Origin: an uncultured Bacteroidia bacterium
Lineage (GTDB): Bacteria > Bacteroidota > Bacteroidia > Bacteroidales > F082
DNA: 55,662 nt
Direction: 5' to 3'
Assembly (NCBI GenBank): GCA_902802535.1
Contig: CADCML010000029.1
Location: 1 to 55,662 of the forward strand
The notes under the pieces are model-generated. The model was given only the letters and a program-made list of their open reading frames with translations, did no database searches and had not been told where the DNA came from. Shown here one piece after another: positions 1,164 to 53,505 of the stretch (its first letter is position 1; the number at the start of each line of letters is the position of its first letter). The position numbers and the translations under genes are program-made.

Positions 1164-2849
1164 TTATAATTGCTGGTATTGTTGGCACAAAGATAGCGGT
1201 TTTTTTGCGAACAGCAGCAAGGATTCAAAAAAGGCGAACAGCGTGGCACCGGCTTGAGTTTCCAAGGTGTCTTCAGGAAACATCGAGAGCAGCATGATGC
1301 AGAGGAACACCATATACAAATAAGTGTGGTTCCGTTTCGAGGAGCACCAAGGATAAAACAGGACGAACAGGAAAAACGCTAAACCCACCAAACCGAAGGC
1401 CACCGCAATAGCAAGATACTGATTATGAGCACGGAAACGAAACTCCTCATGCAGTGGGGAATGGATTTCGTCGTATGTTTGGGCAAAGGCCTGCGGCACA
1501 TCGCCCGTACCCACCCCAAACCAAGGATGTTGTCTGATAATATGGAACGAAGCCCGCGTGAACTCAATCCGTTGCGAGAGCGAGCCACCATTGGGATTAT
1601 TGAAACGTCGGTAAAGGTTGTATTCAAACAAGGTCGACGAAAGGCGGGCGTGCAGGCCGGGATGTTTCCAGTTGTTGTAGTTGGCCACTCCCTGTTCGAT
1701 GTTGCGGATATCCTCGTCGGTGAGGGCCATCACGCCTTGGGCATCCTTGCGCAAGTCCTTGGAAGTCAGATAGCGGGACAGCGTTGCCTCCAAGTTTTCG
1801 CCGTTAGTGGTCGTGCCGTCAAAAGGCAGATTGCTGCGCTCAGACCAAGCCTCTTGCAACTCCGAGCGGCAATAATACAAGCCCACAAACTTCCCGTCCT
1901 CAACGGGATTGTAAATCGTGTCGTGCCAATAAACGTTGCCCAGCGCCGTCTTCTTTTCCAAGGTGCTAAAATCCACGGGCTCCACTTTCAACAAAGGTTT
2001 CACAAAATGCACGACGGCCACGATGCCGAAGACGAGAACCGACAAAGCAACAGCCCCAACTGCGGTATGCCATGCCCTACTCTTTTTCCATTGCAGGAAG
2101 GCATAAACGGCCGTAACGACGACGACAGCCGCCAAAATCACATAGCCCGACAACGACTCGAAAATGAAAATTTGATAGGCGAACCAAAGCAAAAGAAACC
2201 ACTGAAGGAACCGGTCAACGGCCACTTTTATGCCGAATCGGGACGGGCCCTTGTCAGGCTCAGGAGCCTGCTTTTTCAGGGTCGTTGAGCGTGTCGAAAC
2301 GCCCTTTTTAACAAGATACCACCCGATAATGGCCATGCTGAACACGATATTCAGGCAAAAGCGGATATGACTGATAAAACGGGAAATCTCACGGACATCC
2401 TCGTAGTCGTGCTTCAAGTAAGTCGAAAAGCTGAATAGCGTGGCAATGAAAACCGACAACACATAAATGAGCAGAACGAAGTTGAAACGCTTGCGATCGA
2501 GCGGCTCCATGCTGGACAGAACGAAAGGCATGACCAAAATGGGCAACTTGACGCGGAGGTCTTTTGTTGCGTATTGGAAATCGGAGGTCCAGAATAGGCC
2601 GATGACGTGCATAAGGTAGAAGGCGACCAACAACACAGCGGCCTTGTTGTGCCAGAAGCGGGAGAGCTTGGTTTTCATCCCCCGCCCCTTAAAAGGGGGA
2701 AGAGATGCGTCCACAAGCCAGACGAGAACGAGCCAAAACTGCGACATGCCCATGAGGAAAGGCGACAGTGTGAGTCCCACGGCCACCATCAGCAAGCCCA
2801 AGAGATAGGCCTGGTTCAGGTAGGATCGTATGGAAGCCTGAGCCGTCAT
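1164..2849 (-). CDS. O-antigen ligase family (Wzy_C) membrane protein with repeat-derived inserts
   Basis: A protein of about 561 residues with many hydrophobic spans. A large periplasmic loop lies in the second half, followed by the motif QHPWFGVGTGD, typical of the Wzy_C/O-antigen ligase superfamily, which joins or polymerises polysaccharide on undecaprenyl carriers at the periplasmic face of the inner membrane. The ATG at 2849 overlaps the TGA of the upstream S41 protease gene (TGATG), so the two are translationally coupled; a GTG three bases earlier is also possible. Two short palindromic repeats sit in frame: a CCCCTTTTAAGGGG-type one near residues 49-58 and a CTTCGACAGGCTCAGG-type one near residues 184-202. 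Both fall in loops between membrane segments. Whether it acts as ligase (WaaL) or polymerase (Wzy) cannot be told. Confidence 0.8.
   Translation of the reverse strand: MTAQASIRSYLNQAYLLGLLMVAVGLTLSPFLMGMSQFWLVLVWLVDASLPPFKGRGMKTKLSRFWHNKAAVLLVAFYLMHVIGLFWTSDFQYATKDLRVKLPILVMPFVLSSMEPLDRKRFNFVLLIYVLSVFIATLFSFSTYLKHDYEDVREISRFISHIRFCLNIVFSMAIIGWYLVKKGVSTRSTTLKKQAPEPDKGPSRFGIKVAVDRFLQWFLLLWFAYQIFIFESLSGYVILAAVVVVTAVYAFLQWKKSRAWHTAVGAVALSVLVFGIVAVVHFVKPLLKVEPVDFSTLEKKTALGNVYWHDTIYNPVEDGKFVGLYYCRSELQEAWSERSNLPFDGTTTNGENLEATLSRYLTSKDLRKDAQGVMALTDEDIRNIEQGVANYNNWKHPGLHARLSSTLFEYNLYRRFNNPNGGSLSQRIEFTRASFHIIRQHPWFGVGTGDVPQAFAQTYDEIHSPLHEEFRFRAHNQYLAIAVAFGLVGLAFFLFVLFYPWCSSKRNHTYLYMVFLCIMLLSMFPEDTLETQAGATLFAFFESLLLFAKKPLSLCQQYQQL
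2245..2300. repeat. In-frame CTTCGACAGGCTCAGG-type palindromic repeat inside the O-antigen ligase gene
   Basis: Two inverted half-elements: one around 2245-2266 with TTGTCAGGCTCAGG, one around 2279-2300 with GTTGAGCGTGTCGAAACG. Their cores match the copies at 15345, 15635, 17930 and 37787. The frame stays open and yields a polar loop of about 19 residues. Confidence 0.7.
2678..2703. repeat. In-frame CCCCTTTTAAGGGG-type repeat inside the O-antigen ligase gene
   Basis: A short palindrome (CCCCTTAAAAGGGG core) that reads in frame as PPFKGRG between two hydrophobic segments. A related word occurs between genes at 16399-16470. Confidence 0.55.
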
Positions 2850-4524: not shown

Positions 4525-4606
4525 TGCGCAGGGACTTACGTCGTCTGCTGCCTGTATGCGCAGGGACTTACGTCGCCTGCTTACTGATGTGCCGTCCCTA
4601 CGGGAC
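4525..4606 (-). repeat. Tandem GNRA-hairpin leader repeat upstream of the S41 protease gene
   Basis: Read on the minus strand, there are about 1.7 copies of the unit also found three times at 10792-10938: GCAGG, C, GAC, GTAA, GTC, CCTGC followed by a CATACAGGCA-like spacer. They are preceded by GTCCCGTAGGGAC, itself a small hairpin that touches the yidD stop codon. As RNA each unit can fold into a stem capped by the GNRA tetraloop GUAA. Orientation relative to the downstream gene is the same as at the second locus. Confidence 0.75.
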
Positions 4607-7069: not shown

Positions 7070-8080
7070 ATGGACTTAATGCAAGAAATCATTGCCAATG
7101 CCCAAGCCAACAAGCAGCGCATTGTGCTCCCCGAGGGCGACGAGCCCCGCACCCTGAAAGCCGCCGACCGTCTTTTGGCTGACGGTGTCGCCGACATCAT
7201 CCTCATCGGTCCCGCCGAGAAAATCAAGGAGATGACCGCCGAATTTGGCCTCAAGAACATCGACAAGGCCCGCATCATCGACCCGAAAAACAACCCCGAC
7301 AAGAAGAAATATGCCGACCTGCTTTACGACCTCCGCAAAGCCAAAGGCATGACACCCGAACAAGCCGACGACCTGGCCCAGAACTTCATGTATCTCGGCA
7401 TCCTGATGGTCAAGGCAGGTGAGGCCGACGGTCTCGTCAGCGGTGCCCGCAGCACCACGGGCGACATGCTCCGTCCCGCTTTGCAAATCATCAAGACCGT
7501 GCCCGGCGTGACCTGCGTCAGCGGCGCCTTCACGATGTTCCTTCCCGAAGGTTGTCCTTACGGCACCAACGGCCGCATGGTCTTCGCCGACTGCGCCGTC
7601 ACGCCTATGCCGACCGCCGAGCAATTGGCCGAAATCGCCATCTGCACTGCCGACACAGCCAAGGCTATCGCCAAGATTGACCCCATCACCGCCATTTTGA
7701 GCTTTTCCACCAAGGGCAGCGCCAAACACGAGGTGGTCGACAAGGTCATCGAGGCCACACGCATCGCCAAGGAACGTCGTCCCGACCTCGTCCTCGACGG
7801 TGAGCTGCAAGCCGATGCCGCCATCGTGCCGTCCGTCGGTTCGAGCAAAGCCCCAGGCAGCCCTGTCGCTGGCAAGGCCAACACACTGGTGTTCCCCTGC
7901 CTCGAAGTGGGTAACATCGCTTACAAACTCGTGCAACGCCTCGCCGGCGCCGAAGCCGTCGGCCCCGTGCTGCAAGGTCTCGCCAAGCCTTGCAACGACC
8001 TCAGCCGTGGATGTTCTATCGATGACGTTTACAAATTGGTAGCCATCACCTGCAATCAGGCCATTGCGCAGAAGAAATAA
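7070..8080 (+). CDS. Phosphate acetyltransferase
   Basis: A 336-residue Pta of the short class without the N-terminal regulatory domain. It interconverts acetyl-CoA plus phosphate and acetyl phosphate plus CoA. Family landmarks are RIVLPEGDEPRTLKAADRL at the start, GEADGLVSGA, TKGSAKH and DAAIVPSVGSSKAPGS near the end, all in the usual order. The ATG at 7070 is chosen because it matches family N-termini; one at 7079 is the alternative. Acetate kinase follows, so the pair forms the acetate/ATP branch of fermentation. Confidence 0.96.
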   Translation: MDLMQEIIANAQANKQRIVLPEGDEPRTLKAADRLLADGVADIILIGPAEKIKEMTAEFGLKNIDKARIIDPKNNPDKKKYADLLYDLRKAKGMTPEQADDLAQNFMYLGILMVKAGEADGLVSGARSTTGDMLRPALQIIKTVPGVTCVSGAFTMFLPEGCPYGTNGRMVFADCAVTPMPTAEQLAEIAICTADTAKAIAKIDPITAILSFSTKGSAKHEVVDKVIEATRIAKERRPDLVLDGELQADAAIVPSVGSSKAPGSPVAGKANTLVFPCLEVGNIAYKLVQRLAGAEAVGPVLQGLAKPCNDLSRGCSIDDVYKLVAITCNQAIAQKK

Positions 8081-8179
8081 CTATGGCTTATGGCACATGG
8101 CCTATGGCTTGCCCCATAAGGCTTGAGAGCTTCAACTTCTCATGGGGCAAGCCATAGGCCATGGGCTATTGGCCATAGT
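8081..8179. repeat. Large inverted repeat (TATGGCCTATGGC family) between pta and ackA
   Basis: Arms of about 38 bases at 8081-8118 and 8141-8179 are nearly perfect reverse complements, built from ATGGCCTATGGC and ending in GCCCCAT next to the loop. It begins at the first base after the pta stop codon. A second copy is at 48054-48152. It may act as an mRNA-stabilising or attenuating hairpin between the two acetate genes. Confidence 0.8.
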
Positions 8180-10770: not shown

Positions 10771-10938
10771 AGCCCCGTAGGGGCGACACACCAATAAGCA
10801 GGCGACGTAAGTCCCTGCACATACAGGCACAAACAACAACCAATAAGCAGGCGACGTAAGTCCCTGCACATACAGGCACAAACAACAAATAAGCAGGCGA
10901 CGTAAGTCCCTGCACATACAGGCACAAACAACAACAAA
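10771..10938 (+). repeat. Tandem GNRA-hairpin leader repeat, three copies
   Basis: A GCCCCGTAGGGGC hairpin is followed by three near-identical units starting at about 10792, 10841 and 10888 (periods 49 and about 46). Each carries GCAGG, C, GAC, GTAA, GTC, CCTGC, then ACATACAGGCAC and AAACAACAA. In RNA each unit can form an 8-bp stem with one bulged C and a GUAA loop (GNRA class). The block ends about 27 bases before the ATG. The same element precedes the S41 protease gene at 4525-4606. Confidence 0.8.
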
Positions 10939-10964: not shown

Positions 10965-13900
10965 ATGAAAAGACATTTACCACTCAAACAAGTCCTCGCG
11001 ACGCTGCTTGCCTTTGCGGCACTCTTGGCGGGGCAACAGGCCTGGGGCCAAAGCACTTTCACTGTGACTAGCTCAGTAAATGGCTTAGTAAACACATTCA
11101 CCATTACCCGATCGCAAAGCGCGACACAGGAAAAAGTGATTTACCGCACTGTGGACGAATCGACATTTGCGGGAGACCACTACACTGCTGTGGAGGGCAT
11201 ACTCACTTTTAACCCAAATGAAACCACTAAAACCGTCGATGTTAACGAGAAAGACATCACTGATGTCTCTGTCGTGTCGCGATACAGATACTCCAACGTC
11301 AGTAATCGCTCCTATCGTTTCGAAGTGGTTGACCTGGGCGGTTTCGTGTTGGCTGATTACAGAAGGGAACTATACAGCGATTATAACACCTATAAGGTTT
11401 ACCATATCAAAAATAATTATGTAAATACAAGCATCACAGACTTAGTCTATTTTGACAGCAATGGCCATTTCACTTCCGCCATGCCCTCTGGTGCCTATTA
11501 CGACGAACCCGTCATAAACACAACAAACTTCACCAAAGTCACCGATGCCGGATACAAAAATAATCCTTACGCATCTGATGAGTCAAAGAGGTTTTACTAT
11601 AAGCAGAGTGGTGATATCACTAGTACAGAGGCTAAAAACTATTTCTCTGCAGTTGGCGACAAGCTTTATGCCACGGTCTGTTTCACCCAAAAAGAAGAGG
11701 CTGATGGATACCAGTATATCCAAATTACAGCCGACCGCAACGATTTCGATGAATCCGATGATCCAAATGGAGATGTTGATAACCCCGTTAAATCCCTTTA
11801 TAAAGCCTGTTTCATCCTCAGCTATTCCCCTTCTGGAAGTGTCATGGCCGACTCTCATCACCAATTTTTCCCTCACAGATACGACTATGTTGACAATGCC
11901 ACCGCAACTTCAGCAGGTGTTTCCCACTTAGAGTTCGACTACAATAACAGTCATCTATACAAACAAAAATACAACACTTACAACCCTAACGTTAACTACA
12001 ATGCGCCAGATAACGGCGCACTATGCCTCGACCCAAAACTGAGTTATCTCAATTTCCGTTTCGATGCTGGAGGAGGGGGAGACGACCACGACGAATGGTA
12101 CTTTAAAGAACTCTTTGTCCGCTATGCCCTTCTTGATGCCACGGCTCCATCTCCCATCCCACAACATACTCGAGTCAATGTTTGGCCTTACTACCAAGGC
12201 AACGAATTCACCGTGAGCGTACCGTTTAACGAGATTGTGCTCGTCACTGGCACCCCCAGACTCAATTCCACATGGGGCCCCCTTACATACCTACACGGAG
12301 AAGGTACCAACATTCTCTGCTTCAAAGGCACTATCAATGCCTCTGTCAACACCCCATTGAACCTCCAAGGTCTTGTTTCTGGCTCCGGTACCATTAAAGA
12401 TATGGTGGGGCAAAATCTTTACGGCGCTATTACAACTACTGAGAGTAACGGAATCGGTGGAGCCAAAGTCCAATCCAACAATCAATTGGAATACGCCACC
12501 GTCAGCGGCATTAAACACCACTACCTATATACTGGCAATCCCATCTATTTCAACTATACCCTTACAGATTGGCAAGGCACTGTACTGACCCCAGGCCAAG
12601 ACTACCAAGTTTTTCTCAATCATAATACCGACCTCACCTCTAACCCAAATCCCACTGTCACCAATCTCGGCACTTACACCCTGACATTTGTAGGTATATC
12701 ACCTTACACAGGCGAAAAAGAGGTGCAATTCGAGGTGAGTGAAGGCATCATCGTCACTTCCGAGACCACCGCCATGGATGACTTTAAATACATTGTGAAC
12801 AGTGATGTGACCATTGAAAGCCGCATCTTCGTGACAGGCGATGTGGAACTGGTGTTGAATGAGAACTATACGCTCACTGCCACCAAGGGCATTGGAGTGG
12901 CCAAGGACCAGTCACTGACCATCAATGGTAACGGTTCCTTGAGTATTACCAGTACAGAAAGTGGAAATGCCGGCATCGGTGGAACAAAACTATCCGACAA
13001 TAACACTGAAGATAAACACGGCCACATCATCATCAATAGTGGAACAATTTACGTAAAAGCTGGCTATAGTGCAACAGCCATTGGCGGTTCATCTTATGGA
13101 GACAATAAATTATGTGGCAGCATCACCATTAATGGAGGCAACATCACCGCCACCAATTCCAGTACGGGACCCGCCATCGGCTGTGGTGCTGAAAATAACT
13201 ATGCCAAATGTGGAACCATCACTATCAATGGCGGCTGCGTTACTGCCAACAGTTTCCATACGTCCTACTACGGAGGCTTCCATGCAGAGCCAGGCTCATC
13301 AGCCATCCTCACCCTCGGTTGGACCAATACCACCGACTTTATTAATGCATCCAACTACAAAAACCTGAACATCGTATTTGCTGAAGGCAAGGATTGGGTC
13401 ATTGACGGTCCAAATATCAGAGCCACTCCAGAGAGCATTGTTGACGGCTGCAAGATCATCCCCAAGACCGAAGCCATGGGGAACGACATCGCCTACGCTA
13501 CTATCAGCGGCATCGACAGCACCTACAACTATTCCGGCAACGGCATCCCGTTAGAATACACCGTAACCGATGTAAACTACAATGCTCTTACCGAAGGCAC
13601 ACACTATACTACTGAAATAAAATTTGCGGGCAATTCGGTTTCCGAGGTGAATGCTATAGGCAACTATACGATAGAGTTCCATGGAATGGGCACCTACACT
13701 GGTATCAAAACCATCAGTTTCTCTGTCGCATTCCCCGGACCTTCAAATATTGTGCAAACAGGCTATTCCGCCTCTACCGCCTCACTCGAATGGACGGAAA
13801 ACGGCAACGCCACCAACTGGGTCTTGCAATACAGTACCGGTACTTTATTCAGTTCCTATCAGGAAGTGATCGTGAGTGGCACTCCTACCACAACTCTCAC

Positions 13901-15968
13901 TGGCCTCAACAATGAAACCAGATACTATGCCCGTGTGAAATCTGTCATCGGCGAAGTGGAAAGTGACTATACCAGTATTCAACCATTCTACACTACCGAC
14001 AAACGATGGATTGGCTTAGGACCTATAAAGTATGATTATATACTTCCTTTTTACACTAATAGTTATGCCTGTAATTCCTTATCACAGCAGCTTTACACTT
14101 CAGACGAAATAGGTGCGGCAGGAATCATCACGAGTATCGATTTCCGTTCCGGCAATGACGTAACACGCAACTTGGACATATATTTGGTTCATACAAACAA
14201 GAGCGCACACACAGGTGACTATGACTACATTACAGTTACAGCGGATGACAAAGTGTTCAGCGGCAATGTAACAATGGCTCTCTACGACTGGACCACCATC
14301 ACGTTTAGCAAGCCTTTTGTCTATAATGGCACTCAAAATGTCGCCCTTATCGTAAACGACCATTCTGGAAGCGATTCTGATTTTTGTAGTTTTTACGTTT
14401 TTGACGGTGAGAGCAGTTTGGTCAGCCTTTATTGTTACACGACGTCTTCTTCTGCTGCCTTAGATCCGACACAAACTTCAGGAGCATACCATAACAATTC
14501 TCATTCACGTTCCAAGAACGTTATCCGCCTTAACATTATCCAAAACACCTTCATAACTGATGGTGACTGGAACAATCCAGACAATTGGTCAGCAGGCAGT
14601 GTTCCCGTTGCTACCGACAGGGTAGCCATTAACGCTGCTGCCAACATCCCTTCAAATTGCCTTGCTCAGGTACACAGCATCCAAATCGGCACTGGGGGCA
14701 GCATCACCATCGAGGACGGTGGACAGCTCGTTTGCAGCAATGCTGTGGAAATCACAGCAGAGAAGAGTATTACAGCCCGTAGCATTGTCAATAACGTGAA
14801 TAAGGGTTGGACATTCATCGCCTCACCGATATCAACTGCCCTAGCACCGACTGCCGTCACCAACATGACCGACACCGACTTCGACCTATACAGATTCAAC
14901 CAAAGCGCGGATTTAGAGTGGGAGAACTACAAGCAAGAAGGCGAACATAATCTTTTCAATCTTGAAAACGGTCGAGGCTACCTCTATAACAATGCTCAAT
15001 CCATCGATTTGAAGTTTACCGGCTCCTGCAATCCTTCAACGACTGCAATCCCCGTCAATCTCCAATACACTCAGACCGCTGAGTTTGCCGGATGGAACCT
15101 TGTGGGTAACCCGTTCACCTTCAATGCGGTCGTCGATATGCCTTATTATAAGATGAATTCTGATGGTTCGGCCATTTTGGCTACTGAACAGACAACGGGG
15201 ACCATTCCTCCTTGCACGAGTATCATGGTGAAGGCAACAGAAGCCAATCAAAGCATCACCTTCAGCAAGCCCATAGAAGGAAGCGCACCTTCAAACGGCA
15301 ACCTAAACATCGCTGTGACACAACCCAACATGAGCAGCACTTCGACCCTACGACAGGCTCAGGGCTCAGCGACCGTGGTGGACAATGCCATCGTGAGCTT
15401 CAACGAAGGCAACGAATTAGAAAAATTCATCTTTAACACCAACAATGCCAAGCTCTACATCCCGCAAAACGGCAAGGACTACGCCATCGCATGCACAGAA
15501 AAGCAAGGCGAGCTACCGCTGAACTTCATAGCCGAGGAAAACGGCACCTACACGATTACGGTCGCTCCCGAAGGCGTGGAGATGAGCTATCTGCACCTGA
15601 TTGATAATTTGACTGGCAATGATGTTGACCTGCTGGCCCTTCGACAGGCTCAGGGACCAATGTCCTACACCTTCACCGCCAAAACCACGGACTATGAGAG
15701 CCGATTCAAGCTGGTGTTCATCTGCGGGGATACAAACGATGACAATGATGGTGACAATGCGACCTTCGCTTTCTATAGCAACGGCAACTGGATTATTGCC
15801 AACGAGGGCGAGGCCACACTGCAAATGGTTGATGTGATGGGCCGCATCCTCAGCAGCGAGACCATCAGCGGCAGCATCAACAAGACCATTGATGCTGTGC
15901 CTGGAATGTATGTGTTGCGCTTGGTGAATGGCAACGATGTTAAGACACAGAAAATTGTGGTGAAGTAA
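10965..15968 (+). CDS. Giant secreted surface protein with T9SS type A sorting domain
   Basis: A 1667-residue secreted protein. Parts in order: signal peptide of about 29 residues ending QQAWGQ; a Calx-beta-like strand region (about 30-100); a long region of unknown fold; two similar beta domains (about 508-600 and 843-925) with YATVSGI/YATISGI, YNYSGN and GTYTG; between them repeats of ITINGG suggesting a parallel beta-helix (about 620-800); a fibronectin III domain (about 925-1010); a Cys-poor region; and a C-terminal T9SS domain ending VLRLVNGNDVKTQKIVVK. It is therefore exported through the outer membrane and probably anchored to the surface. Two copies of a palindromic repeat are translated in frame (LRQAQG twice). 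Function unknown; adhesin is a guess. Divergent AraC regulator with operator-like sites upstream. Confidence 0.85.
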   Translation: MKRHLPLKQVLATLLAFAALLAGQQAWGQSTFTVTSSVNGLVNTFTITRSQSATQEKVIYRTVDESTFAGDHYTAVEGILTFNPNETTKTVDVNEKDITDVSVVSRYRYSNVSNRSYRFEVVDLGGFVLADYRRELYSDYNTYKVYHIKNNYVNTSITDLVYFDSNGHFTSAMPSGAYYDEPVINTTNFTKVTDAGYKNNPYASDESKRFYYKQSGDITSTEAKNYFSAVGDKLYATVCFTQKEEADGYQYIQITADRNDFDESDDPNGDVDNPVKSLYKACFILSYSPSGSVMADSHHQFFPHRYDYVDNATATSAGVSHLEFDYNNSHLYKQKYNTYNPNVNYNAPDNGALCLDPKLSYLNFRFDAGGGGDDHDEWYFKELFVRYALLDATAPSPIPQHTRVNVWPYYQGNEFTVSVPFNEIVLVTGTPRLNSTWGPLTYLHGEGTNILCFKGTINASVNTPLNLQGLVSGSGTIKDMVGQNLYGAITTTESNGIGGAKVQSNNQLEYATVSGIKHHYLYTGNPIYFNYTLTDWQGTVLTPGQDYQVFLNHNTDLTSNPNPTVTNLGTYTLTFVGISPYTGEKEVQFEVSEGIIVTSETTAMDDFKYIVNSDVTIESRIFVTGDVELVLNENYTLTATKGIGVAKDQSLTINGNGSLSITSTESGNAGIGGTKLSDNNTEDKHGHIIINSGTIYVKAGYSATAIGGSSYGDNKLCGSITINGGNITATNSSTGPAIGCGAENNYAKCGTITINGGCVTANSFHTSYYGGFHAEPGSSAILTLGWTNTTDFINASNYKNLNIVFAEGKDWVIDGPNIRATPESIVDGCKIIPKTEAMGNDIAYATISGIDSTYNYSGNGIPLEYTVTDVNYNALTEGTHYTTEIKFAGNSVSEVNAIGNYTIEFHGMGTYTGIKTISFSVAFPGPSNIVQTGYSASTASLEWTENGNATNWVLQYSTGTLFSSYQEVIVSGTPTTTLTGLNNETRYYARVKSVIGEVESDYTSIQPFYTTDKRWIGLGPIKYDYILPFYTNSYACNSLSQQLYTSDEIGAAGIITSIDFRSGNDVTRNLDIYLVHTNKSAHTGDYDYITVTADDKVFSGNVTMALYDWTTITFSKPFVYNGTQNVALIVNDHSGSDSDFCSFYVFDGESSLVSLYCYTTSSSAALDPTQTSGAYHNNSHSRSKNVIRLNIIQNTFITDGDWNNPDNWSAGSVPVATDRVAINAAANIPSNCLAQVHSIQIGTGGSITIEDGGQLVCSNAVEITAEKSITARSIVNNVNKGWTFIASPISTALAPTAVTNMTDTDFDLYRFNQSADLEWENYKQEGEHNLFNLENGRGYLYNNAQSIDLKFTGSCNPSTTAIPVNLQYTQTAEFAGWNLVGNPFTFNAVVDMPYYKMNSDGSAILATEQTTGTIPPCTSIMVKATEANQSITFSKPIEGSAPSNGNLNIAVTQPNMSSTSTLRQAQGSATVVDNAIVSFNEGNELEKFIFNTNNAKLYIPQNGKDYAIACTEKQGELPLNFIAEENGTYTITVAPEGVEMSYLHLIDNLTGNDVDLLALRQAQGPMSYTFTAKTTDYESRFKLVFICGDTNDDNDGDNATFAFYSNGNWIIANEGEATLQMVDVMGRILSSETISGSINKTIDAVPGMYVLRLVNGNDVKTQKIVVK
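15345..15373. repeat. In-frame CTTCGACAGGCTCAGG-type repeat, copy 1 in the T9SS protein
   Basis: CCCTACGACAGGCTCAGG followed by GCTCAGCGACC; translated as TLRQAQGSAT near residues 1461-1470. It sits in a Ser/Asn-rich linker. Confidence 0.75.
15635..15658. repeat. In-frame CTTCGACAGGCTCAGG-type repeat, copy 2 in the T9SS protein
   Basis: GGCCCTTCGACAGGCTCAGG plus GACC, translated as ALRQAQGP near residues 1557-1565. It is the cleanest copy in the window, nearly a perfect imperfect-stem palindrome. Confidence 0.8.
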
Positions 15969-15975
15969 TGCAAAT

Positions 15976-16010
15976 CAACGGGAAGCCGCCGGTTGGCGAG
16001 CTTCCCGTTG
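15976..16010. terminator. Terminator-like hairpin after the T9SS protein gene
   Basis: CAACGGGAAG pairs with CTTCCCGTTG around a 15-base loop, 8 bases after the stop codon. It lacks a clear T-tract, so it may be a factor-independent terminator or simply an mRNA 3' stem. It separates convergent genes. Confidence 0.55.
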
Positions 16011-16479: not shown

Positions 16480-17961
16480 ATGAAGAAGCTTTACCAATAT
16501 ATCACCAAATCGTTTTTGGGCACCTTTTTCCTCACCTTTTTCATCGTGGTGTTCGTTTGGGTGATGCAATTTGTGTGGCTTTATGTCGATGACTTGGTCG
16601 GCAAAGGATTGGAACTCAAGATTATAGCCGAACTTTTGTTTTACACCTCCATCACGGCCATTCCCATGTCCCTGCCCTTGGCCTTGCTGTTGGCCTTGCT
16701 GATGTGCTTCGGCAACCTCGGCGAACATTACGAACTGGTGGCGATGAAAGCCTCTGGCATCTCCATGTGGAGAGTCATGAGGCCACTCATGAACTTCGCC
16801 ATACTTCTCAGCGTGTTGGCTTTCTTCATCTCCAACAGCCTCATCCCTATTGCCACACTCAAATGGCGCACCTTGCTGACCGATGTGCAACGGCAAAAAC
16901 TCGCCTTCAATATCAAGGAAGGGGTGTTTTACAAGGACATCGACAACTACGTCATCTACGTGGAAAAGAAAGGCAAAGACGGCAGCAGCATCTACGGTGT
17001 GAAGATTTATGACCACACCGACCGCCTGGGCAACACCAAAATCATCAGCGCCGACTCGGGCATGATGTCGATGAGTCCCAACCAACGCAACATCATTTTT
17101 ACCCTGTATGACGGCTACAACTACACCGACCTTACCCCCGACAACTATAAGGAAACACGGCCTTTCGAGCGCATGTCGTTCAAGCAGGAACAAATCAAGT
17201 TCAGCCTCGCCTCGTTCGACATGACCCGTTCGAACGAAGACATGTACAAGTCGTACCAGCAGATGATGAACATCCGCCAACTCTCCTCCTCGTTAGACTC
17301 GCTGCAACACCGTTTCGCAGGCAAACAAGAGGCTTTCTCTCAAGGCTTCTCGCGACGTTGGGCCAACTATAGTAGCATACGCGGCTCAACGCCTGAAGAC
17401 ATCGCGCAACACATCCCCGACAGTCTTGTGGCCGACACAAACCTCATCCTGAGCTGGCCCCTCCTCGACCAATACGAAGGAGAAATCCGCTCCTCCATCC
17501 TCAACATGGCCATCTCCAGCGCCCAAAACGCCAAAGACAACGCCTCGTTCAACAATGTAGACTTCAAGTCCCAGAACGAGAACATCAACAAACACAAGAA
17601 GGAATGGCACAAGAAGTTCACTTTGAGCATCGCCTGCCTCATCTTTTTCTTTATCGGGGCACCCTTGGGCAGCATTATCCGCAAGGGCGGCTTGGGTCTG
17701 CCCGTCGTCATCTCCGTGGTCTTTTTCATCATCTACCATCTCATCTCCACCATAGCCGAGCGCATGGCCGTGTTTGGCGACCTCAACATGTTCCTCGGCG
17801 TGTGGCTATCGTCATTGGTGCTGCTTCCCCTCGGACTGTTCTTCACCTTCAAGGCCACCACCGACGCGGCCCTCTTCGACGGCGACAGCTGGAAAAAATT
17901 CTTCCAACGATTGTTCAAACGCCACAAGACCCCTAAGCTCGTCGAAGGGCCGAAACCATAA
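16480..17961 (+). CDS. LptF/LptG family permease (YjgP/YjgQ)
   Basis: A 493-residue inner-membrane protein of the family whose members, with LptB and LptC, pull lipopolysaccharide out of the inner membrane toward the LptA bridge. Layout fits: three N-terminal membrane spans (SFLGTFFLTFFIVVFVWVM onward, with the family PMSLPLALLLALL and ELVAMKASGISMWRVMRP coupling region), a periplasmic beta domain of about 250 residues, and three C-terminal spans starting near SIACLIFFFIGAPLGSI. LptF and LptG cannot be separated by eye. The last ten residues (TPKLVEGPKP) derive from a palindromic repeat, so the native C-terminus has been replaced or extended. The glycosyltransferase follows after 12 bases. 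Confidence 0.88.
   Translation: MKKLYQYITKSFLGTFFLTFFIVVFVWVMQFVWLYVDDLVGKGLELKIIAELLFYTSITAIPMSLPLALLLALLMCFGNLGEHYELVAMKASGISMWRVMRPLMNFAILLSVLAFFISNSLIPIATLKWRTLLTDVQRQKLAFNIKEGVFYKDIDNYVIYVEKKGKDGSSIYGVKIYDHTDRLGNTKIISADSGMMSMSPNQRNIIFTLYDGYNYTDLTPDNYKETRPFERMSFKQEQIKFSLASFDMTRSNEDMYKSYQQMMNIRQLSSSLDSLQHRFAGKQEAFSQGFSRRWANYSSIRGSTPEDIAQHIPDSLVADTNLILSWPLLDQYEGEIRSSILNMAISSAQNAKDNASFNNVDFKSQNENINKHKKEWHKKFTLSIACLIFFFIGAPLGSIIRKGGLGLPVVISVVFFIIYHLISTIAERMAVFGDLNMFLGVWLSSLVLLPLGLFFTFKATTDAALFDGDSWKKFFQRLFKRHKTPKLVEGPKP
17930..17952. repeat. CTTCGACAGGCTCAGG-type repeat forming the LptF/G C-terminus
   Basis: CCCCTAAGCTCGTCGAAGGG plus CCG, an inverted copy of the family, encodes KLVEGP just before the stop at 17959-17961. 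Confidence 0.7.
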
Positions 17962-31326: not shown

Positions 31327-31384
31327 CAGCCTCAATTTGACATCAAATCAACTAATCACTAATTAAAAATTAAACTTAAACATC

Positions 31385-33409: not shown

Positions 33410-33433
33410 GGATTATTTGAACATTAATCAATG

Positions 33434-33461
33434 AAAAAAGGAGACTTTGGTCTCCTTTTTT
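33434..33461 (+). terminator. Terminator or attenuator hairpin between paralogs 2 and 3
   Basis: AAAAAAGGAGAC pairs with GTCTCCTTTTTT around a TTTG loop. It ends only about 19 bases before the ATG of paralog 3. No TAnnTTTG promoter lies between it and that ATG, so read-through would be needed for expression of paralog 3. Confidence 0.8.
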
Positions 33462-33479
33462 CATCTAAACACAAGCATT

Positions 33480-35501
33480 ATGAAAAAAGTTTTATTCGTT
33501 ACACTCGCCTTGGCCGTCGGAATGACCGGCTTTGCGCAAATCAAGAACCAGCCCGTCAAGGCTGAGCCTATGAAGACCGGCACCGCCAACATCTACAAGA
33601 AAGCCTACGGCGGCACCGAAGACCCCATCATGAGCTTCGCCCCCACACAGGCACTGCCCTACAACGAGAACAGAGAAATCGATTTCGCGGTAGACGTGCA
33701 GACCATGAAGACCTACTATGACCTGCAAAGCAACGGCTTTGTGGCCAACCGCATGCACCGTTTCGACGACGGCACCGTGGGTCTCGTCGCCACTTGGTCG
33801 CAACAATCCAACTTGAGCGACCGTGGTGCGGGCTACGACTACTACAACGGCAGCGCGTTCATCTACGACGAGGAGAACAACCCGATGCCCGGCCGCATCG
33901 AGAATGAAAAGACCGGCTGGCCCTGCTACACCCAGTATGGCCCCGACGGCGAAATCGTCATTTCCCATGCCGCCTTCGGCACAAGCAATGCCCACCTCTG
34001 CTATTACACCCGCGAGAAGAAGGGCGAAGGCGAATGGCAAGGCCCCTTCACCATTCCGAACCCCGAAGACCTCGGCACTACGGTGAACCTGATGACCTGG
34101 CCCAAGATTGCCACCTCGGGCCCCAACCATGACATCATCCATGTGCTCGGTTGCGACCAGGACGACGACAATCTGGCCGACTCTTACCTCTACTACAGCC
34201 GCTCGACCGACGGCGAGAACTGGACCACCACTTTCATCCCCACCTTGGAAGACTGGGAGCACAAGCTTTATGGCTCCGACTACTACTCGTTGGCCGCCAA
34301 CGGCAACAATGTGGCTATCCTGCTTTGCGGCGGTACCATGAGCCACGGCTATGTGATCAAGTCGACCGACAACGGCGAGACCTGGGAACAAATCAAGTTC
34401 TGGGACAACCCTTACGCCGGCCTCGACTGGGAAACCGACCCGAACTCGCTCTTCGGCGAAGACAATCCGATGTACGGCCCTGAAACCGGTGCCATCTGCA
34501 TTGACGACAACGGCATGGTACATGGTGTGTTCTCCTCTCATCGCTACTATCACGACGAGCTTGGCACCACCTATACCTTCAGCTATGGCAAGAACATCGA
34601 CGGCATCTTCTACTGGAACGAGAGCATGGGTACGCTGCAAGGCCCCGAGTGGGTTTGCCCCGACGACGGCTATGTGATTCCGTCCAACCCCCACAACGTG
34701 TTCCGCATGTGGTGGCCCGTCGACGAAAGCGGTGAGTACATCATCCGCAACTTCACCACCTCCAACCTCGTCGGTTTCATCGACTATGAAACCTACAGCG
34801 ACATGAATTTTGACAACATGTATTACGGGCAAGACTACTATCAGTTCTGGCAAGGCGCTTCGGTACTGCCCGTCATCTGCGCCGACGCAAGCGGCACAGT
34901 GGCCATCGGCTTCTCCTGCCCCGACTTTTACCGCGCCGACAACAACAACATGTACCTGAGAAGCATCTACGTGAGCTTCATTTTTCCGCCTTACATCATG
35001 GCAGATGCCAATGGTTTTTACACGGAGGAAACCGGTAGTGTCTACTACAACTGGTTAAAGTTGCAGGAGGCCGACGATTTCATGCACAGCTACGACGAGT
35101 GTGTGGCCACCATTTGCCCTCAGAACACCACCAACGGGCAGTTCTGGTTCGGTTACCAAGCCGACGACACTCCCGGCTTCTACATTGGCAACAACGCCTC
35201 TCAGACTTCTGCTACCGAAAACTTCATTTGGGCTGTTATGGTTGACACGCACATCGACGAGGTGGAAGAAAACATCGTTGCCGCCAACACGCAGATGGAA
35301 GTCTATCCCAACCCGGCTGTCAACGAGCTGAACGTGAGACTGGAAAACGACGCTGAAATCTCCGTCTTCAACATCATGGGCCAGAGCGTGCTCAACATGC
35401 AAGGCGTGAAGGGTGTCAACACCATCAATGTCAGCAACCTGACCGGTGGTGTGTATTTCATCACGGCTGGCACGGTGACGCAGAAGGTTATCGTGAAGTA
35501 A
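33480..35501 (+). CDS. Secreted BNR/sialidase-like protein with T9SS domain, paralog 3
   Basis: A 673-residue paralog of the two preceding genes. Signal peptide KKVLFVTLALAVGMTGFAQ is identical to that of paralog 2; mature start PVKAEPMKTGTANIYKKAY; blades STDGENWTTTF and STDNGETWEQIKFWDNPYAG; a T9SS domain from VYPNPAVNELNVRLENDA to TQKVIVK. The ATG at 33480 is chosen because it starts the signal peptide; the frame extends 11 codons upstream through the hairpin. It has no visible promoter of its own and so is probably co-transcribed with paralog 2 through an attenuating hairpin. Divergence from paralog 2 is concentrated in surface loops of the propeller-like region. Confidence 0.83.
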   Translation: MKKVLFVTLALAVGMTGFAQIKNQPVKAEPMKTGTANIYKKAYGGTEDPIMSFAPTQALPYNENREIDFAVDVQTMKTYYDLQSNGFVANRMHRFDDGTVGLVATWSQQSNLSDRGAGYDYYNGSAFIYDEENNPMPGRIENEKTGWPCYTQYGPDGEIVISHAAFGTSNAHLCYYTREKKGEGEWQGPFTIPNPEDLGTTVNLMTWPKIATSGPNHDIIHVLGCDQDDDNLADSYLYYSRSTDGENWTTTFIPTLEDWEHKLYGSDYYSLAANGNNVAILLCGGTMSHGYVIKSTDNGETWEQIKFWDNPYAGLDWETDPNSLFGEDNPMYGPETGAICIDDNGMVHGVFSSHRYYHDELGTTYTFSYGKNIDGIFYWNESMGTLQGPEWVCPDDGYVIPSNPHNVFRMWWPVDESGEYIIRNFTTSNLVGFIDYETYSDMNFDNMYYGQDYYQFWQGASVLPVICADASGTVAIGFSCPDFYRADNNNMYLRSIYVSFIFPPYIMADANGFYTEETGSVYYNWLKLQEADDFMHSYDECVATICPQNTTNGQFWFGYQADDTPGFYIGNNASQTSATENFIWAVMVDTHIDEVEENIVAANTQMEVYPNPAVNELNVRLENDAEISVFNIMGQSVLNMQGVKGVNTINVSNLTGGVYFITAGTVTQKVIVK

Positions 35502-35517
35502 TTCCTTTGACGCTTTG

Positions 35518-35600
35518 CGTCATTGCGAGCACAGCGAAGCAATCCAGACATCAAGTGATTCAGTTCTGGATTGCTTCGTCGTTCCTCCTCGCAATGACGC
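35518..35600. repeat. CATTGCGAG/CAATCCAG inverted repeat, copy B
   Basis: GCGTCATTGCGAGC, GAAGCAATCCAG, loop, CTGGATTGCTTCGTC and CTCGCAATGACGC. Same family as 31175-31248. It lies between convergent paralog 3 and pdxA and may end transcription from both sides. Confidence 0.85.
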
Positions 35601-35606
35601 ATGCGC

Positions 35607-36690: not shown

Positions 36691-37962
36691 TTACAAAAAA
36701 AGTGTGTTTTTGAAGCCTTTTAAAATGATTTCCGTCGCTCCAACCTGCGATTTGAGGTAATTTCGGCAGGTTTCGGAGGCTTTTGCATAGAAATCTTCGT
36801 TGTGTATCAACCGCTCGACAACCGAGCCCAACTCCTCCGTATCCTTGACAGAGAAGGCACCTTCCAAGCCGACCAAGTCGACCGCCTCCTTGAAGCTCTT
36901 GTATTTGGGCCCGAACATCACTGGGCAGCCAAACGTGACCGGTTCCTGAATGTTATGGATGTTCACCCCGAAGCCGCCACCAATGTAAACGAAACGGGCA
37001 TATTGATAGAGTTGGGAAAGGATACCAATTGTGTTGATGATCAAAATCTTGGATTGCTTTTCCGTCTTCATATCCGTATAAAGCTGACATTCAGGGAACT
37101 GCATCTTGATTTGAGCGATATGCGAAGCCGAAATGTCGTGCGGCGCAATAATGAGGCAATAGTCGTCGGGCAACTGGGGAAGGACATTGACCAACAGTTT
37201 CTCGTCGGGCGGCCAAGTGCTGCCTGCGATGAAGCACTTCCTACCCTCGATAAAATGTTCCACTTCGGGGAAAGGTTTGGCCTGCCTCGCAATGGCCGCC
37301 ACTCGGTCGAAGCGCGTATCGCCACAAACGGTGACATTCCCCAAACCATGGGCTTCGAGCAACCGAGCCGTAGTTTCGTCCTGCACGAAGAAGTGGGTCA
37401 CATTGCGGAGTTGTTTGCGGAACCAGCCGCCATACCAGCGGAAAAAATAGGAATCGGGCTTCAGGATAAGCGAGATGTAGAACAAGGGGATGCCAGCCTC
37501 CTTCAAGGCACGCATGTAGTGGAACCAAAACTCGTACTTGATGAAGAAAGCCGCCACGAAATGATGGCGTTTTACCCATTGGGCGGCATGACGCGGCGTG
37601 TCGGAGGGCAGGTAAAGCACCTCGTCGGCCAAGGGATAGTCTTTGCGGATTTCGTAACCCGAAGGCGAGAAAAACGACAGCAGAATCTTGTATTGAGGGA
37701 AGTCCTTTTTGAGCGCCTCAATGACGGGACGGCCTTGCTCGAACTCACCGAGTGAGGCGGCGTGAAACCAAATCCATTCAGTAGAAGTCGGTCCTTCGAC
37801 AAGCTCATGGGCCGACTGTTTTTGAACCGACGTTTCGACAGGCTCAACGGCCTTGGTTTTGCGACCATTCACCCATTGCTTGGCTTTGGCATTGCCGAAC
37901 AGTGCGGCCGTCCTCACGCCGAGGGAATAAAAAAGGATGCCTATGGAGTAGAAGACGTTCAC
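36691..37962 (-). CDS. 3-deoxy-D-manno-octulosonic acid (Kdo) transferase KdtA/WaaA with a repeat-derived insert
   Basis: A 423-residue GT30 enzyme that adds Kdo to lipid A on the inner leaflet of the inner membrane. Family marks: an N-terminal membrane-binding helix; WFHAASLGEFEQGRPVIE (acceptor-side Glu), LLSFFSPSGYEIR, FIKYEFWFHYM, QDETTARLL, GSTWPPDEKLL, and YIGGGFGVNIHNIQEPVTFGCPVMFGP near the end, the nucleotide-sugar site. Between WVNGRK and WIWFHAAS lies an extra 26-residue stretch (36-61) from a double palindromic repeat; other family members join these segments by a few residues. The start codon is GTG. The gap upstream holds another repeat family and no clear promoter. Confidence 0.92.
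   Translation of the reverse strand: MNVFYSIGILFYSLGVRTAALFGNAKAKQWVNGRKTKAVEPVETSVQKQSAHELVEGPTSTEWIWFHAASLGEFEQGRPVIEALKKDFPQYKILLSFFSPSGYEIRKDYPLADEVLYLPSDTPRHAAQWVKRHHFVAAFFIKYEFWFHYMRALKEAGIPLFYISLILKPDSYFFRWYGGWFRKQLRNVTHFFVQDETTARLLEAHGLGNVTVCGDTRFDRVAAIARQAKPFPEVEHFIEGRKCFIAGSTWPPDEKLLVNVLPQLPDDYCLIIAPHDISASHIAQIKMQFPECQLYTDMKTEKQSKILIINTIGILSQLYQYARFVYIGGGFGVNIHNIQEPVTFGCPVMFGPKYKSFKEAVDLVGLEGAFSVKDTEELGSVVERLIHNEDFYAKASETCRNYLKSQVGATEIILKGFKNTLFL
37787..37853. repeat. In-frame double CTTCGACAGGCTCAGG-type repeat inside kdtA
   Basis: Half one: GGTCCTTCGACAAGCTCATG plus GGCC. Half two: CGTTTCGACAGGCTCAACGG plus CC. They are separated by about 17 bases. The same two-half plan is found in the O-antigen ligase gene at 2245-2300. 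Reading frame stays open and gives AVEPVETSVQKQSAHELVEG. Confidence 0.8.
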
Positions 37963-37991
37963 TTGATTTAGGTAACTTTGACGTGTGACTG

Positions 37992-38070
37992 GACTGCGAG
38001 ACTACGGGACTGCGGGACTACGGGACGTAGGACTATCTCGTAGTCCCGAAGTCTCGTAGTCCCGAAGTCA
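37992..38070. repeat. GGGACTACGGGACT-type inverted repeat
   Basis: Left arm GAGACTACGGGACTGCGGGA then CTACGGGAC; right arm TCTCGTAGTCCCGAAGTCTC then GTAGTCCCGAAGTC. It fills the gap between kdtA and the outer-membrane protein gene. A related copy is in frame in the acyltransferase at 49799-49868. Confidence 0.8.
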
Positions 38071-47415: not shown

Positions 47416-47464
47416 TAATTAGGTTTAGTGCTTTTTCATTTTGATTTGATTGGTTGATTTTGAT

Positions 47465-47490
47465 GAGACGGTGCACGCACCGTCTCTACC
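47465..47490. terminator. GAGACGGTGC palindrome acting as terminator
   Basis: GAGACGGTGC pairs perfectly with GCACCGTCTC around the dinucleotide AC and is followed by TACC and a T-run. It lies between the convergent T9SS and purE genes. The same repeat family is inserted in the TPR lipoprotein gene at 52081-52108. Confidence 0.75.
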
Positions 47491-48013: not shown

Positions 48014-48053
48014 ATCGATTATCAGTTGTTCTGTTATTCAGTTGTTCAGTTTG

Positions 48054-48152
48054 CAGATGGCAGATGGCTTATGGCCTATGGCAGCCCCAATAAAATGAAT
48101 AAAGTTTCCGTTTTGTGGGGCAGCCATGGGCCATTAGCCATAGGCCATAGTT
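48054..48152. repeat. Large inverted repeat (TATGGCCTATGGC family), purE-hpt copy
   Basis: Arms at about 48054-48090 and 48114-48152: GCTTATGGCCTATGGCAGCC plus CCAA pairs with TTGTGGGGCAGCCATGGGCC and ATTAGCCATAGG. Same build as the pta-ackA copy at 8081-8179, but lying between divergent genes and upstream of the hpt promoter. Confidence 0.8.
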
Positions 48153-49436: not shown

Positions 49437-49572
49437 TCACAAAACCTTCAAAACTGGCAAAATCTTTTGTTTTCGTTGGGAAGCACGCCAACCGGCTGCT
49501 TCCCGGCGACAAGCGGTTGCGAGCCGCCCACGTTAAAATGAATGTTTTGAGAGTTTTGTAAGTTTTGTGACA
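49437..49572. repeat. CACAAAACCTTCAAAAC palindrome with an internal hairpin
   Basis: Outer arms TTCACAAAACCTTCAAAAC (49437-49456) and GTTTTGAGAGTTTTGTAAG plus TTTTGTG (49546-49572) are reverse complements with mismatches; an inner AAGCACGCCAACCGGCTGCTT-like hairpin lies within 49480-49510. It fills the gap between convergent adk and the acyltransferase gene and may terminate both. Confidence 0.6.
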
Positions 49573-49577: not shown

Positions 49578-50315
49578 TCAATGTTCCCAGCGGATGTCGT
49601 GTTTGAGAACAGCAGGCGGATTGCCGCCAATCACCTGATATTCACCTGAAAAGTTCGATTTTACCATCGTTCCAGCCGCAACCACCGTATTGTCAGGCAC
49701 TTCTGCGCCTTTTAATAACACGCATTTGCAACCAATCCACACATGGTTGCCCACGATGATGGGCTTGTCGGGATTGATGCGCTCGTTTTCCTTATTTATT
49801 GACTTCGAGACTTCGGGACTCGGGACAGGACTGGAGTCCCGCGTCTCGTGTCTCGCAGTCTCGTGTCTATTATACAAAGGATGCTCGTCGGTATCCATCA
49901 CGAGGATGTCCCAACTCAGGAGGCAGTCGTCACCGAAACGGATTTCCTTGGCACAAACTATTGTGCTTTCAGCCGTCATGTTGAAGCCTGCACCGAGTTT
50001 CAAGTTACCGCGCACCGAGAGCTTAGAGCCATGTCCGATGCTCGCCTTGCCGCCAAAGCTTACCGTGCCGCTCACCTGCCAGATGCTTCGTGAACGCTTT
50101 CTGTCATAGTGTCCCACATCGCCGAAGCCGATTTTCACCATCGCAGTTTTTACATTTTCAGGGAGTTCCACTTTGCCGTGCAACTCTCGCAAAAATGTGC
50201 GGTGCGACACGACGACAGGCAACTTCAATGCCGTTTTCAGCGGAAAATAATGGAAATTGAAGCGCAATGTCTTCGGGATGGAGCAGAGGATATTGAAGAA
50301 ATCGAAAGCGGTCAT
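49578..50315 (-). CDS. Hexapeptide-repeat (LbH) acyltransferase with a repeat-derived insert
   Basis: A 245-residue acyltransferase of the left-handed beta-helix type. Hexapeptide words are seen in FGGKASIGHGSKLSVRGNLKLGAGFNM and again in PIIVGNHVWIGCKCVLLKGAEVPDNTVVAAGTMV; the latter holds the usual catalytic region. Likely it transfers an acetyl group to a sugar of a surface polymer, but the substrate is unknown. Between EHPLYN and INKENERINPDKP, where relatives have only a short turn, lies an extra stretch of about 24 residues encoded by a GGGACT-type palindromic repeat (about residues 150-173). The insert is Ser/Pro/His-rich and would sit in the surface loop next to the helix. Confidence 0.85.
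   Translation of the reverse strand: MTAFDFFNILCSIPKTLRFNFHYFPLKTALKLPVVVSHRTFLRELHGKVELPENVKTAMVKIGFGDVGHYDRKRSRSIWQVSGTVSFGGKASIGHGSKLSVRGNLKLGAGFNMTAESTIVCAKEIRFGDDCLLSWDILVMDTDEHPLYNRHETARHETRDSSPVPSPEVSKSINKENERINPDKPIIVGNHVWIGCKCVLLKGAEVPDNTVVAAGTMVKSNFSGEYQVIGGNPPAVLKHDIRWEH
49799..49868. repeat. In-frame GGGACTACGGGACT-type repeat inside the acyltransferase gene
   Basis: GACTTCGAGACTTCGGGACT plus CGGGACAGGA pairs with TCCCGCGTCTCG plus TGTCTCGCAGTCTC. Same family as the intergenic copy at 37992-38070. The frame is open through the whole repeat. Confidence 0.8.
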
Positions 50316-51755: not shown

Positions 51756-53505
51756 GTGAGAGAAAGAAGACTACTATATATAGTTATTGCTTTGCTGATG
51801 CTGGTAAGCTGCAATTCCAGCAAGACCACTGAGCCTGAGGCAATTGAGGACCGTCGAAGGGTTGAAACGCCGTCCCCAGAATTGGTCTTCATCGACAGCC
51901 TAATGTGGCAACGCCCTGACAGCTCATTGTTGGTTTTGATGGAATACAAAGGCGATTCCAACGTGTTCAACACCCATTACGCCCAATTGCTAACCTCGGA
52001 ATTGCTGTTCAAGAACGATTACGCCCAAACCAATCGTACGGAATTGTTGCAGGCCGTGGCGTATTTCGATTCGTTGTGCGGTAGAGACGGTGTGCACACC
52101 GTCTCTTCAACCGTTGCGTTTTTGGATGCACGGGCGAATCATGGAAAACCATTTTGACGAGAATGAATTGGTGGATAAGAAGGCGCGGTTTATGGCCTTG
52201 ACATACGGCCGTCTTCTTGTTATGTTCAAAGACCAACTTATGCCAGAATCCGCCATTTATTGTGCCAAGCAGTACTTGGTATACAACCAGATTGCGCCGA
52301 CTTCACTCAACGCTAAAGCCAATATTTTGTATCAAATTGGATTAGAATATCATATCTTGCATCAACCAGACAGCGTTGTTTTCTATTATGATGCGGCGTT
52401 TAATGCCTTACATAACAGAAACACTATTGTTTACAGGGATTTGGTGGTTTCACAAGCAGTGTTTGATTATTATGAAGTCCACGATACCATAAAAGCCTTG
52501 GACAGTCTGAAAAGCATGGCAGCACAAGCCGAAAGCGAAACCGAAAGAATAACCCGATATTCAACCATTGGCGACATTTATCATAATGCCAGACAATTCG
52601 ATTCTGCCAAGGTATATTTGAAAGCAGTATTTGATTTTTCAAATGACGACATTATAAAAAAACTTGCAGCAAAGACTTTGCATGACATTGCCATTAGCGA
52701 AGGCGACACACTGAAAGCCAACCAATATGCCCAATTCCTCATAGAAGATGTAGCCGCAGCAGCCGAAAACCAAAAGCGGGTCTCCCAATTGAACGACCTG
52801 TTCCAGAACTACTTGCAGGAGAAGCAGGAAGCGGCTTCGCTCCGTGAACGAAGGAAGGCGGTGAGGCTGACGCTTATGGTATTAGTGCCGCTACTATTGG
52901 CCATTGGTTTGGCGGTGGCCATCGTGATGCGGCGCAGACACAGAAAACGCTTGGCGGCACAAGAGGCGGACGCGCAGCGGCGGTTGGAGGAGGAACGCCA
53001 AAGCCATCGCATGGAACAGGCGGCGCTTTCGGGACGGCTGAAACGGAGCAACGAGACCTTGCGCGAGCTGCAAGACCAGGTGCGACAACAGAACGACACG
53101 GCACCAAAGCCTGAAACATCGGCGGCGAGTTTTGCCGAGGAGCCGATTTGCCTCCTGATTATGGAACGGGTGAATGATGGGCAGTTCAAGTCGCAGATGG
53201 ACTGCACGGTTTACAAGGACTATGCCTTGGGGAAGGAACAAGTGACGGCGTTGCGCGAGGCCGCCGACCGCCACTTCAACCAGTTCACGAGCCGACTGGC
53301 CAAGGCTTATCCCGACCTCACCCGTGGCGATTTGGACTATTGCTGCCTGTATCTTTTAGGGCTTTCTGACGCTGATATTGCCGCTTTGATGCAGAAAGCC
53401 TATCCGACCGTGTCGCATCGTGCCCGAAAGATGAAGGCTATTTTTAAAAGTGAGTCACCTCTGCCTACAACACTTCTTGATTTTGCCAAGGAATCAAATG
53501 GTTAA
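51756..53505 (+). pseudogene. TPR lipoprotein with C-terminal HTH, disrupted by repeat insertion and deletion
   Basis: The first frame (GTG at 51756) has a lipoprotein signal (LLMLVSC) and a start of TPR helices to FLDARANH. The family then resumes in another frame with MENHFDENELVDKKARFMALTYGRL and continues through four or so TPR-like pairs (NAKANILYQIGLEYHILHQ, TRYSTIGDIYHNARQFDSAKVYL), a membrane helix (LTLMVLVPLLLAIGLAVAIVM), a coiled coil of about 60 residues, and a C-terminal HTH-like part (LTRGDLDYCCLYLLGLSDADIAALM). About 25 residues are missing at the frame break in comparison with the usual Bacteroidales family. In addition, a palindromic repeat is inserted in frame at 52081-52108. 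As read it is not one protein; the downstream part may be made from a start near 52141. Confidence 0.82.
52081..52108. repeat. GTAGAGACGGTGTGCACACC-type palindrome in the TPR lipoprotein gene
   Basis: GAGACGGTGTG pairs perfectly with CACACCGTCTC, the same family as 47465-47490. It is translated in frame as GRDGVHTVSS next to a conserved TVAFLDARAN. Confidence 0.8.

Follow-up and report, generated by a model that had tools for sequence, protein, structure and literature searches.

The stretch of DNA analyzed here, called the window, comprises all 55,662 nucleotides of contig CADCML010000029.1 (assembly GCA_902802535.1). It is contig C29 of genome G000, a fragmented Bacteroidales metagenome-assembled genome (MAG) of 3.7 Mb in 139 contigs with a completeness of 85%. 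An O-antigen ligase, a 1667-residue protein of the type IX secretion system (T9SS), LptF/G, KdtA, an acyltransferase and a tetratricopeptide repeat (TPR)-type lipoprotein are encoded in the window, and each of these genes contains a short repeat that is read in frame. These palindromic repeats, whose translation into protein is predicted, are our subject, together with their counterparts in 35 further genomes of the same genus. Among PyrC records with titles, the closest come from MAGs of uncultured Bacteroidia/Bacteroidales, one of them being RUG11609 (89% identical), and the titles of some close records point to the rumen or reticulum.

Four families of repeats are considered. Family A has the core TCGACARGCTC plus four flanking bases on each side, which pair with each other and form covarying stems. 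Family B is a GTAGAGACG palindrome, and its GTAGAGACG...CGTCTCTAC copies bear GTAG. Family C is a CGTC-type repeat, CGTCATTGCGAG, and family D, GCAGGGACTTACGTCGCCTGC, is tied to a RAYT transposase gene. Units measure 24-30 nucleotides and clustered pairs about 50-71 nucleotides. An Rfam scan of the window gave no matches at the gathering threshold.

The O-antigen ligase (open reading frame (ORF) 1164-2852) contains an A pair at 2241-2303 on the reverse strand, translated as GVSTRSTTLKKQAPEPDKGPS. The initial annotation assigned two families to this gene; the in-frame insert stands, and its direct and inverted halves are two stem types of A rather than two families. The T9SS protein (ORF 10965-15968) has two A units on the forward strand, at 15344-15367 (translated STLRQAQGS) and at 15635-15658 (LALRQAQGP). 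When this protein was compared with its paralogs in G000, the position of the second unit was filled in the C5 paralog and empty in the C12, C75 and C102 paralogs. A diverged A-like unit at about 17930-17951, forward strand, supplies the C-terminal tail PKLVEGP of LptF/G (ORF 16480-17961), and two A units in direct orientation at 37790-37852, reverse strand, are translated as KAVEPVETSVQKQSAHELVEGP in KdtA (ORF 36691-37962, frame open to 38001). For these last two proteins, orthologs from congeners served as the comparison. The hexapeptide acyltransferase (ORF 49578-50315) has a repeat other than A, of the GAGACTGC/GTCCCGAAGTC type, at about 49791-49868 on the reverse strand; among solved structures, 2wlc_A has about 2 residues where the acyltransferase has about 26. 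The in-frame repeats in the T9SS protein, LptF/G, KdtA and the acyltransferase are thus confirmed as first described.

The TPR-type lipoprotein is a weak in-frame case. Its B palindrome (52080-52109, forward strand, translated GRDGVHTVSS) lies in the 3' part of ORF 51756-52157 and is in frame with the upstream part, which is what had been proposed, but the gene (51756-53505) uses one frame to just past the B copy and another downstream, whereas the C48 paralog has a single frame throughout. Family models support the annotation as O-antigen ligase, T9SS sorting domain and LptF/LptG. For the acyltransferase (Hexapep) and for the TPR lipoprotein, the only family matches are below curated cut-offs.

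The same families also lie between genes, as had been noted. Intergenic copies include a B palindrome at 47461-47490, C inverted pairs at 31171-31251 and 35515-35602, D units at 4525-4580 on the forward strand and three D units at 10798-10916 on the reverse strand. A further repeat type, with GAGACTGCGAGAC and GTCCCGAAGTC words, is present at about 37990-38070 just upstream of kdtA and within the acyltransferase repeat, and its words are found on C10, C12, C77 and C81 too. Two more palindromic families, with CCATAGGCC words and with GGGAAGC...GCTTCCC, lie outside the main reading frames at 8080-8179, 48049-48150, 15979-16006 and 49478-49505. Positions 29077-35501 contain three paralogs of about 2 kb in tandem.

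Dispersal and host genes

All four families are dispersed in G000, and the genome-wide word search placed each of them above its reversed control word. The A 15-mer with at most two mismatches has 70 matches against 8 for the control; B has 38 sites against 1, C has 102 matches against 11, and D has 32 against 3. Over the exact A cores in retrieved stretches, all four flanking pairs are formed in 34 of 54 cores in G000, with eight different stems, and in 52 of 58 cores in G003, with seven; shuffled partners reached at most 16 and 28, respectively, in 1000 trials. Neighboring A units no more than 80 nucleotides apart are inverted in 14 of 15 pairs in G000 and in 15 of 17 in G003, and single units are common too.

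One could suppose that the matches are chance words in GC-rich genes, and inspection indicates that a few of them are (C26, C35:34917, C43, C52 and C87). For the bulk of the copies, however, this explanation is refuted, and we consider it extremely improbable: the control words gave 1-11 matches against 32-102, the stems covary, and orthologous sites without the repeat exist.

Family A is widespread in the genus. At least 10 matches occur in 20 of 36 congeneric genomes, as against 2 of 24 genomes of the order's other families, and a search of viral contigs with the 24-nucleotide A pattern gave no exact matches.

Many of the host genes are conserved. A is in frame in NqrF, PyrC, MurD, MurB, a GYDIA-type GHMP kinase, an ABC substrate-binding protein and a DcuC-type carrier. 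It also follows immediately after the core of NrdJ and is present in the region beyond the C-terminal domain of FtsZ, in the tails of TruA and a rhomboid protein, and near the N-terminal end of a TolC-type protein; in both T9SS proteins checked, it is right in front of the sorting domain. B is in frame in a XerD-type recombinase, a U32 peptidase, a macro-domain protein, and T9SS and TPR-like proteins; C is in frame in DNA polymerase I (PolA), Mfd, aspartate-semialdehyde dehydrogenase and a DusB-like protein. Some of these names rest on the best family, with a match below the curated cut-off. This applies to KdtA, XerD, the ABC substrate-binding protein, the acyltransferase, the TPR lipoproteins, LptF (by name) and the Mfd, PolA and DusB fragments.

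Unbroken frames and orthologous sites

A single classifier scored every cluster in the retrieved stretches of G000. These stretches contain the 70 A matches, the B sites, the D matches and the 100 C matches listed out of 102; a looser search gives 135 A matches, and part of the 100 listed among them lies in the classified stretches. No cluster of any family was scored as disrupting a gene (0 of 166), with the qualification that genes broken long ago decay and are scored as outside genes. Of 57 A clusters, 22 are in frame and 35 are outside genes; for B the numbers are 12 and 19 (n = 31), for C 7 and 52 (n = 59) and for D 0 and 19 (n = 19). An early reading of G000 that C never enters genes was given up once the remaining C regions had been read and the 7 in-frame clusters appeared.

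Random insertion into the window was simulated with 1200 trials per single unit. The fractions in frame, disrupted and outside genes were 0.345, 0.267 and 0.388 for A, 0.303, 0.287 and 0.409 for B, 0.338, 0.268 and 0.395 for C, and 0.25, 0.318 and 0.432 for D. Thus, 27-32% of single units, and 38% of A pairs, would disrupt a gene. The probability of such an absence of broken genes, computed from these fractions, is about 3e-6 for A and about 3e-4 for B, assuming independent clusters, which paralogs are not. Selection against broken frames, which the initial annotation had suggested, is borne out by this contrast.

Two other suggestions were not supported. An excess of in-frame copies over simulated random insertion was not found for A or B, as 39% of the clusters of both families are in frame, compared to 47% (A) and 43% (B) of the non-disrupting simulated insertions. 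Nor is there support for the idea that the repeats evolved to be stop-free: stops are absent from 5 of the 6 frames of A, 4 of B, 5 of C and 4 of D, which for none of the four is more than in dinucleotide shuffles. The lack of broken clusters, the lack of an in-frame excess and the ordinary stop content together point to roughly random insertion and subsequent loss of the disruptive copies.

Filled and empty sites are found side by side in orthologous genes. In MurB, 29 orthologs were compared at the site between GWLIE.G and WKGW; a 30th row is without the region. Seven of the 29 have an A-derived peptide there, with 24 to 60 nucleotides added, 1 has a short insert that was not recognized, and in 21 the site is empty. 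Among 30 PyrC orthologs, the loop has A or an A-derived peptide in 12, B in 5 and neither in 13. The B copies are GTAGAGACGC-type palindromes in the DNA, and the loops that carry them exceed the empty ones by a few residues only; therefore, B may have replaced part of the loop. The PyrC of G021 has A in the opposite orientation and in a different frame, which indicates a separate event. A clear A insert is present in 5 of 30 KdtA orthologs, a degenerate one in 2 and none in 23. The A-like tail of LptF is present in 2 of 30 homologs, the other bearer being G021 only, and a few of these rows are short or truncated. Comparison with orthologs, which had been proposed as a check, thus supports the inserts among congeners, where the MurB, PyrC and KdtA loops are empty or carry other copies.

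On a quick tree of the three proteins built with the loops removed (11 of 34 inner branches are weak), at least 8 changes are required for PyrC, 6 for MurB and 3 for KdtA, leaving out the unclear rows G023 (MurB), G007 and G021 (KdtA). These changes may be gains or exact losses, and we infer that insertion is the direction of change. MurB displays other features as well. The A fragments in MurB of L158 and on C100 are nested or in tandem (GGCCCTTCGGCCCTTCGAC), which looks like insertion of A into an earlier copy or slippage inside it, and the MurB proteins of G035 (L179) and G032 (L186) have other insertions (SFRPERSAVEKS... and PLPSVGRNDSVSS, respectively) in a neighboring loop, which perhaps represent other repeat families.

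The inserts had been placed at loops or termini, and the modeled cases, with inserts in loops, linkers or termini, agree. In the AlphaFold2 model of KdtA (mean pLDDT 89), the only segments below 50 are residues 36-38 and 40-55, both inside the repeat; they belong to the linker between the N-terminal helices and the first strand and are modeled as disordered. In the MurB model (mean pLDDT 86), the blocks around the repeat, 281-300, score 62-66, and block 121-130 is lower, at 53. Alignment with solved structures leaves a 17-residue gap exactly at the repeat in MurB and a 14-residue gap that includes it in NqrF; the MurD alignment breaks at the repeat, and the gaps in PyrC and XerD match it only partly.

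Possible mobilization, survival and choice of frame

Some of the machinery that could move such repeats is present in the genus. G000 has five Y1/RAYT genes, each with its own palindromic or inverted repeats around it, and D lies on both sides of a RAYT gene in G000, G007 and G012 (L016, L318 and L343). The mobilizing machinery proposed initially was seen for D only. A search of 36 genomes gave 90 Y1_Tnp matches, and the 54 loci examined represent 53 distinct ones, two of them without a recognized ORF; no mobilizer for A or C was seen in these 53. No B copies are present beside the five RAYT genes of G000, and a B-like palindrome (GAGACGC...GCGTCTC) on both sides of one RAYT gene in G010 is a hint for that family. 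Apparent links between A and RAYT at L328, L331 and L338 were dismissed on inspection, the first two being chance words and the third lying in a neighboring gene. At L013 (233-1477), a type I restriction specificity protein (Methylase_S) has as its C-terminus the palindromic repeat that flanks the adjacent RAYT gene.

The explanation that we favor, with a probability of about 0.8, is that several small repetitive extragenic palindromic (REP)-like families are or were mobile in this genus. Their insertion would be roughly random, copies that shift the frame or add a stop would be lost by purifying selection, and in-frame copies in a tolerant loop, linker or terminus would survive and become part of the protein. 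Presumably A, B and C were formerly mobilized in trans by a transposase, either a RAYT or another HUH enzyme.

Several observations weigh against this explanation. Genes contain far fewer C and D copies than expected under simple random insertion, and therefore insertion or tolerance differs among the families. Of the 22 in-frame A clusters, about 3 (C11, C52 and C87) have on inspection the look of 5' flanks or chance matches. With several of the B copies located in paralogs, some counted events are not independent, and the lipoprotein of the window was scored as in frame although it is frameshifted close to its B copy. By folding energy, neither a single A unit nor the direct A pair of KdtA (z -0.7) makes a stable hairpin; two inverted A pairs do (z -3.8 and -3.1). 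A flanks the RAYT gene in none of the 53 distinct Y1_Tnp loci, where it should be noted that the MAGs are incomplete and that the A-rich genomes G022 to G033 were not searched. Finally, A has a frame bias that stop avoidance leaves unexplained.

This bias was measured on 52 genic A units in 44 ORFs from G000 and G003, which form 33 similarity groups; each group was counted once per frame, and the G003 part covers the 66 A matches listed out of 74. The frame read as PSTGSG was used 18 times, PEPVEG 10 times, LRQAQG 9 times, FDRLRD twice and LSLSKG once. The last two frames, both of which are open in the A consensus, thus account for 3 of 40 against an expected 40% (p 6e-6). G000 alone had first suggested that two of the open frames of A are not used at all; this view was overturned by G003 and by the KdtA proteins of relatives, and what is left is a bias.

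A possible explanation, which we rate somewhat short of even, is selection at the level of the peptide: the flexible or disordered readings PSTGSG, PEPVEG and LRQAQG would be favored, copies read as FDRLRD or LSLSKG would be removed, and some A copies may even be favored as linkers. The scarcity of the two frames is consistent with this and so is the repeated filling of the same loops, as in PyrC by A and by B. However, the KdtA proteins of G012, G016 and G018 read A as LSLSKG/LSQSKG and that of G002 reads it as RPFDKLRA, and when a looser rule is applied to G003, 5 of its 33 genic units, counted after removal of one spurious core, are in the disfavored frames. Alternatively, A would require for its insertion a short target seldom found in one of the codon phases, and the two frames would be rare without any selection on the peptide. 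A hand derivation with the 24-nucleotide unit indicates that FDRLRD and LSLSKG put the element edge in one codon phase, and such targeting would fit the observed bias equally. We consider this rather unlikely; against it, several genes use that phase for B (the GRDG copies), though B is another element. Because the edge of the element falls in the same codon phase in the two rare frames, selection on the peptide and phase-biased insertion are indistinguishable here.

A stronger proposal, which we think unlikely, is that REP-like elements continually supply this genus with peptides for loops and linkers. Unrelated families would enter the same tolerant loops of essential enzymes again and again, and selection would favor those frames in which the peptide is flexible or disordered. 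If it were true, a family of selfish DNA would have come to encode acceptable protein in chosen frames. The Rickettsia elements long ago raised the question of whether selection shapes the mobile DNA in proteins or only tolerates it. A genus with at least 36 genomes makes it testable, with empty and filled sites in conserved enzymes that have solved relatives, and two unrelated families in one loop and a measurable choice of frame add to this. There is also a warning for annotation, in that an insert of this kind is not necessarily a domain, a sequencing error or a functional motif.

Relation to known repeats

The Rickettsia palindromic elements and the coding palindromes of Wolbachia lie in frame inside unrelated genes, with several families per genome. 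The likeness to the Rickettsia elements that was pointed out initially holds, as A, B and C are likewise in frame in unrelated coding genes and several families are present in one genome. The repeats described here differ in that they are from another phylum and have short units.

A REPIN consists of two closely spaced REPs that are inverted relative to each other, and REPs that flank a Y1/RAYT gene form a REPtron. A resembles a REPIN in forming inverted pairs, but no A-flanked RAYT gene was seen in the 53 distinct loci. D flanks its transposase gene as in a REPtron, and none of its 19 clusters is in a gene.

The literature searched gave no match to four 15-mers of A and no account of family A, of filled and empty sites across a genus, of one loop with two families or of a measured frame bias; its closest precedent is the description of intragenic GTAG and CGTC REPs by Di Nocera et al. 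(2013, PMC3733652). According to the available passages of that paper, more than half of the intragenic REPs are dimers or groups, DNA repair genes are prominent among the hosts, which include the gene for DNA polymerase I, and the CGTC REPs, some of them in Bacteroidetes, are without a dedicated transposase. C agrees by eye in its CGTC tag, its CCA tail and its frequent inverted pairs (CGTCATTGCGAG...GCAATCCAG). B starts with GTAG and lies in genes, and the same passages give no GTAG repeats for Bacteroidetes; the GTAG tag of the families they describe is unpaired, at one end of the palindrome, whereas it is paired with CTAC in the two full B palindromes that were folded. A is by eye without either conserved tag.

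The enterobacterial RU elements in annotated genes are also small mobile repeats with reading frames, and at 103-168 bp they differ from the REP-sized palindromes of this genus (Delihas 2007, PMC2759123, in the part available). Because intragenic REPs and RU elements have already been published, palindromic repeats within genes are a known kind; what is measured here, beyond the available passages on intragenic REPs, is the choice of frame and the filled versus empty state of orthologous sites within one genus.

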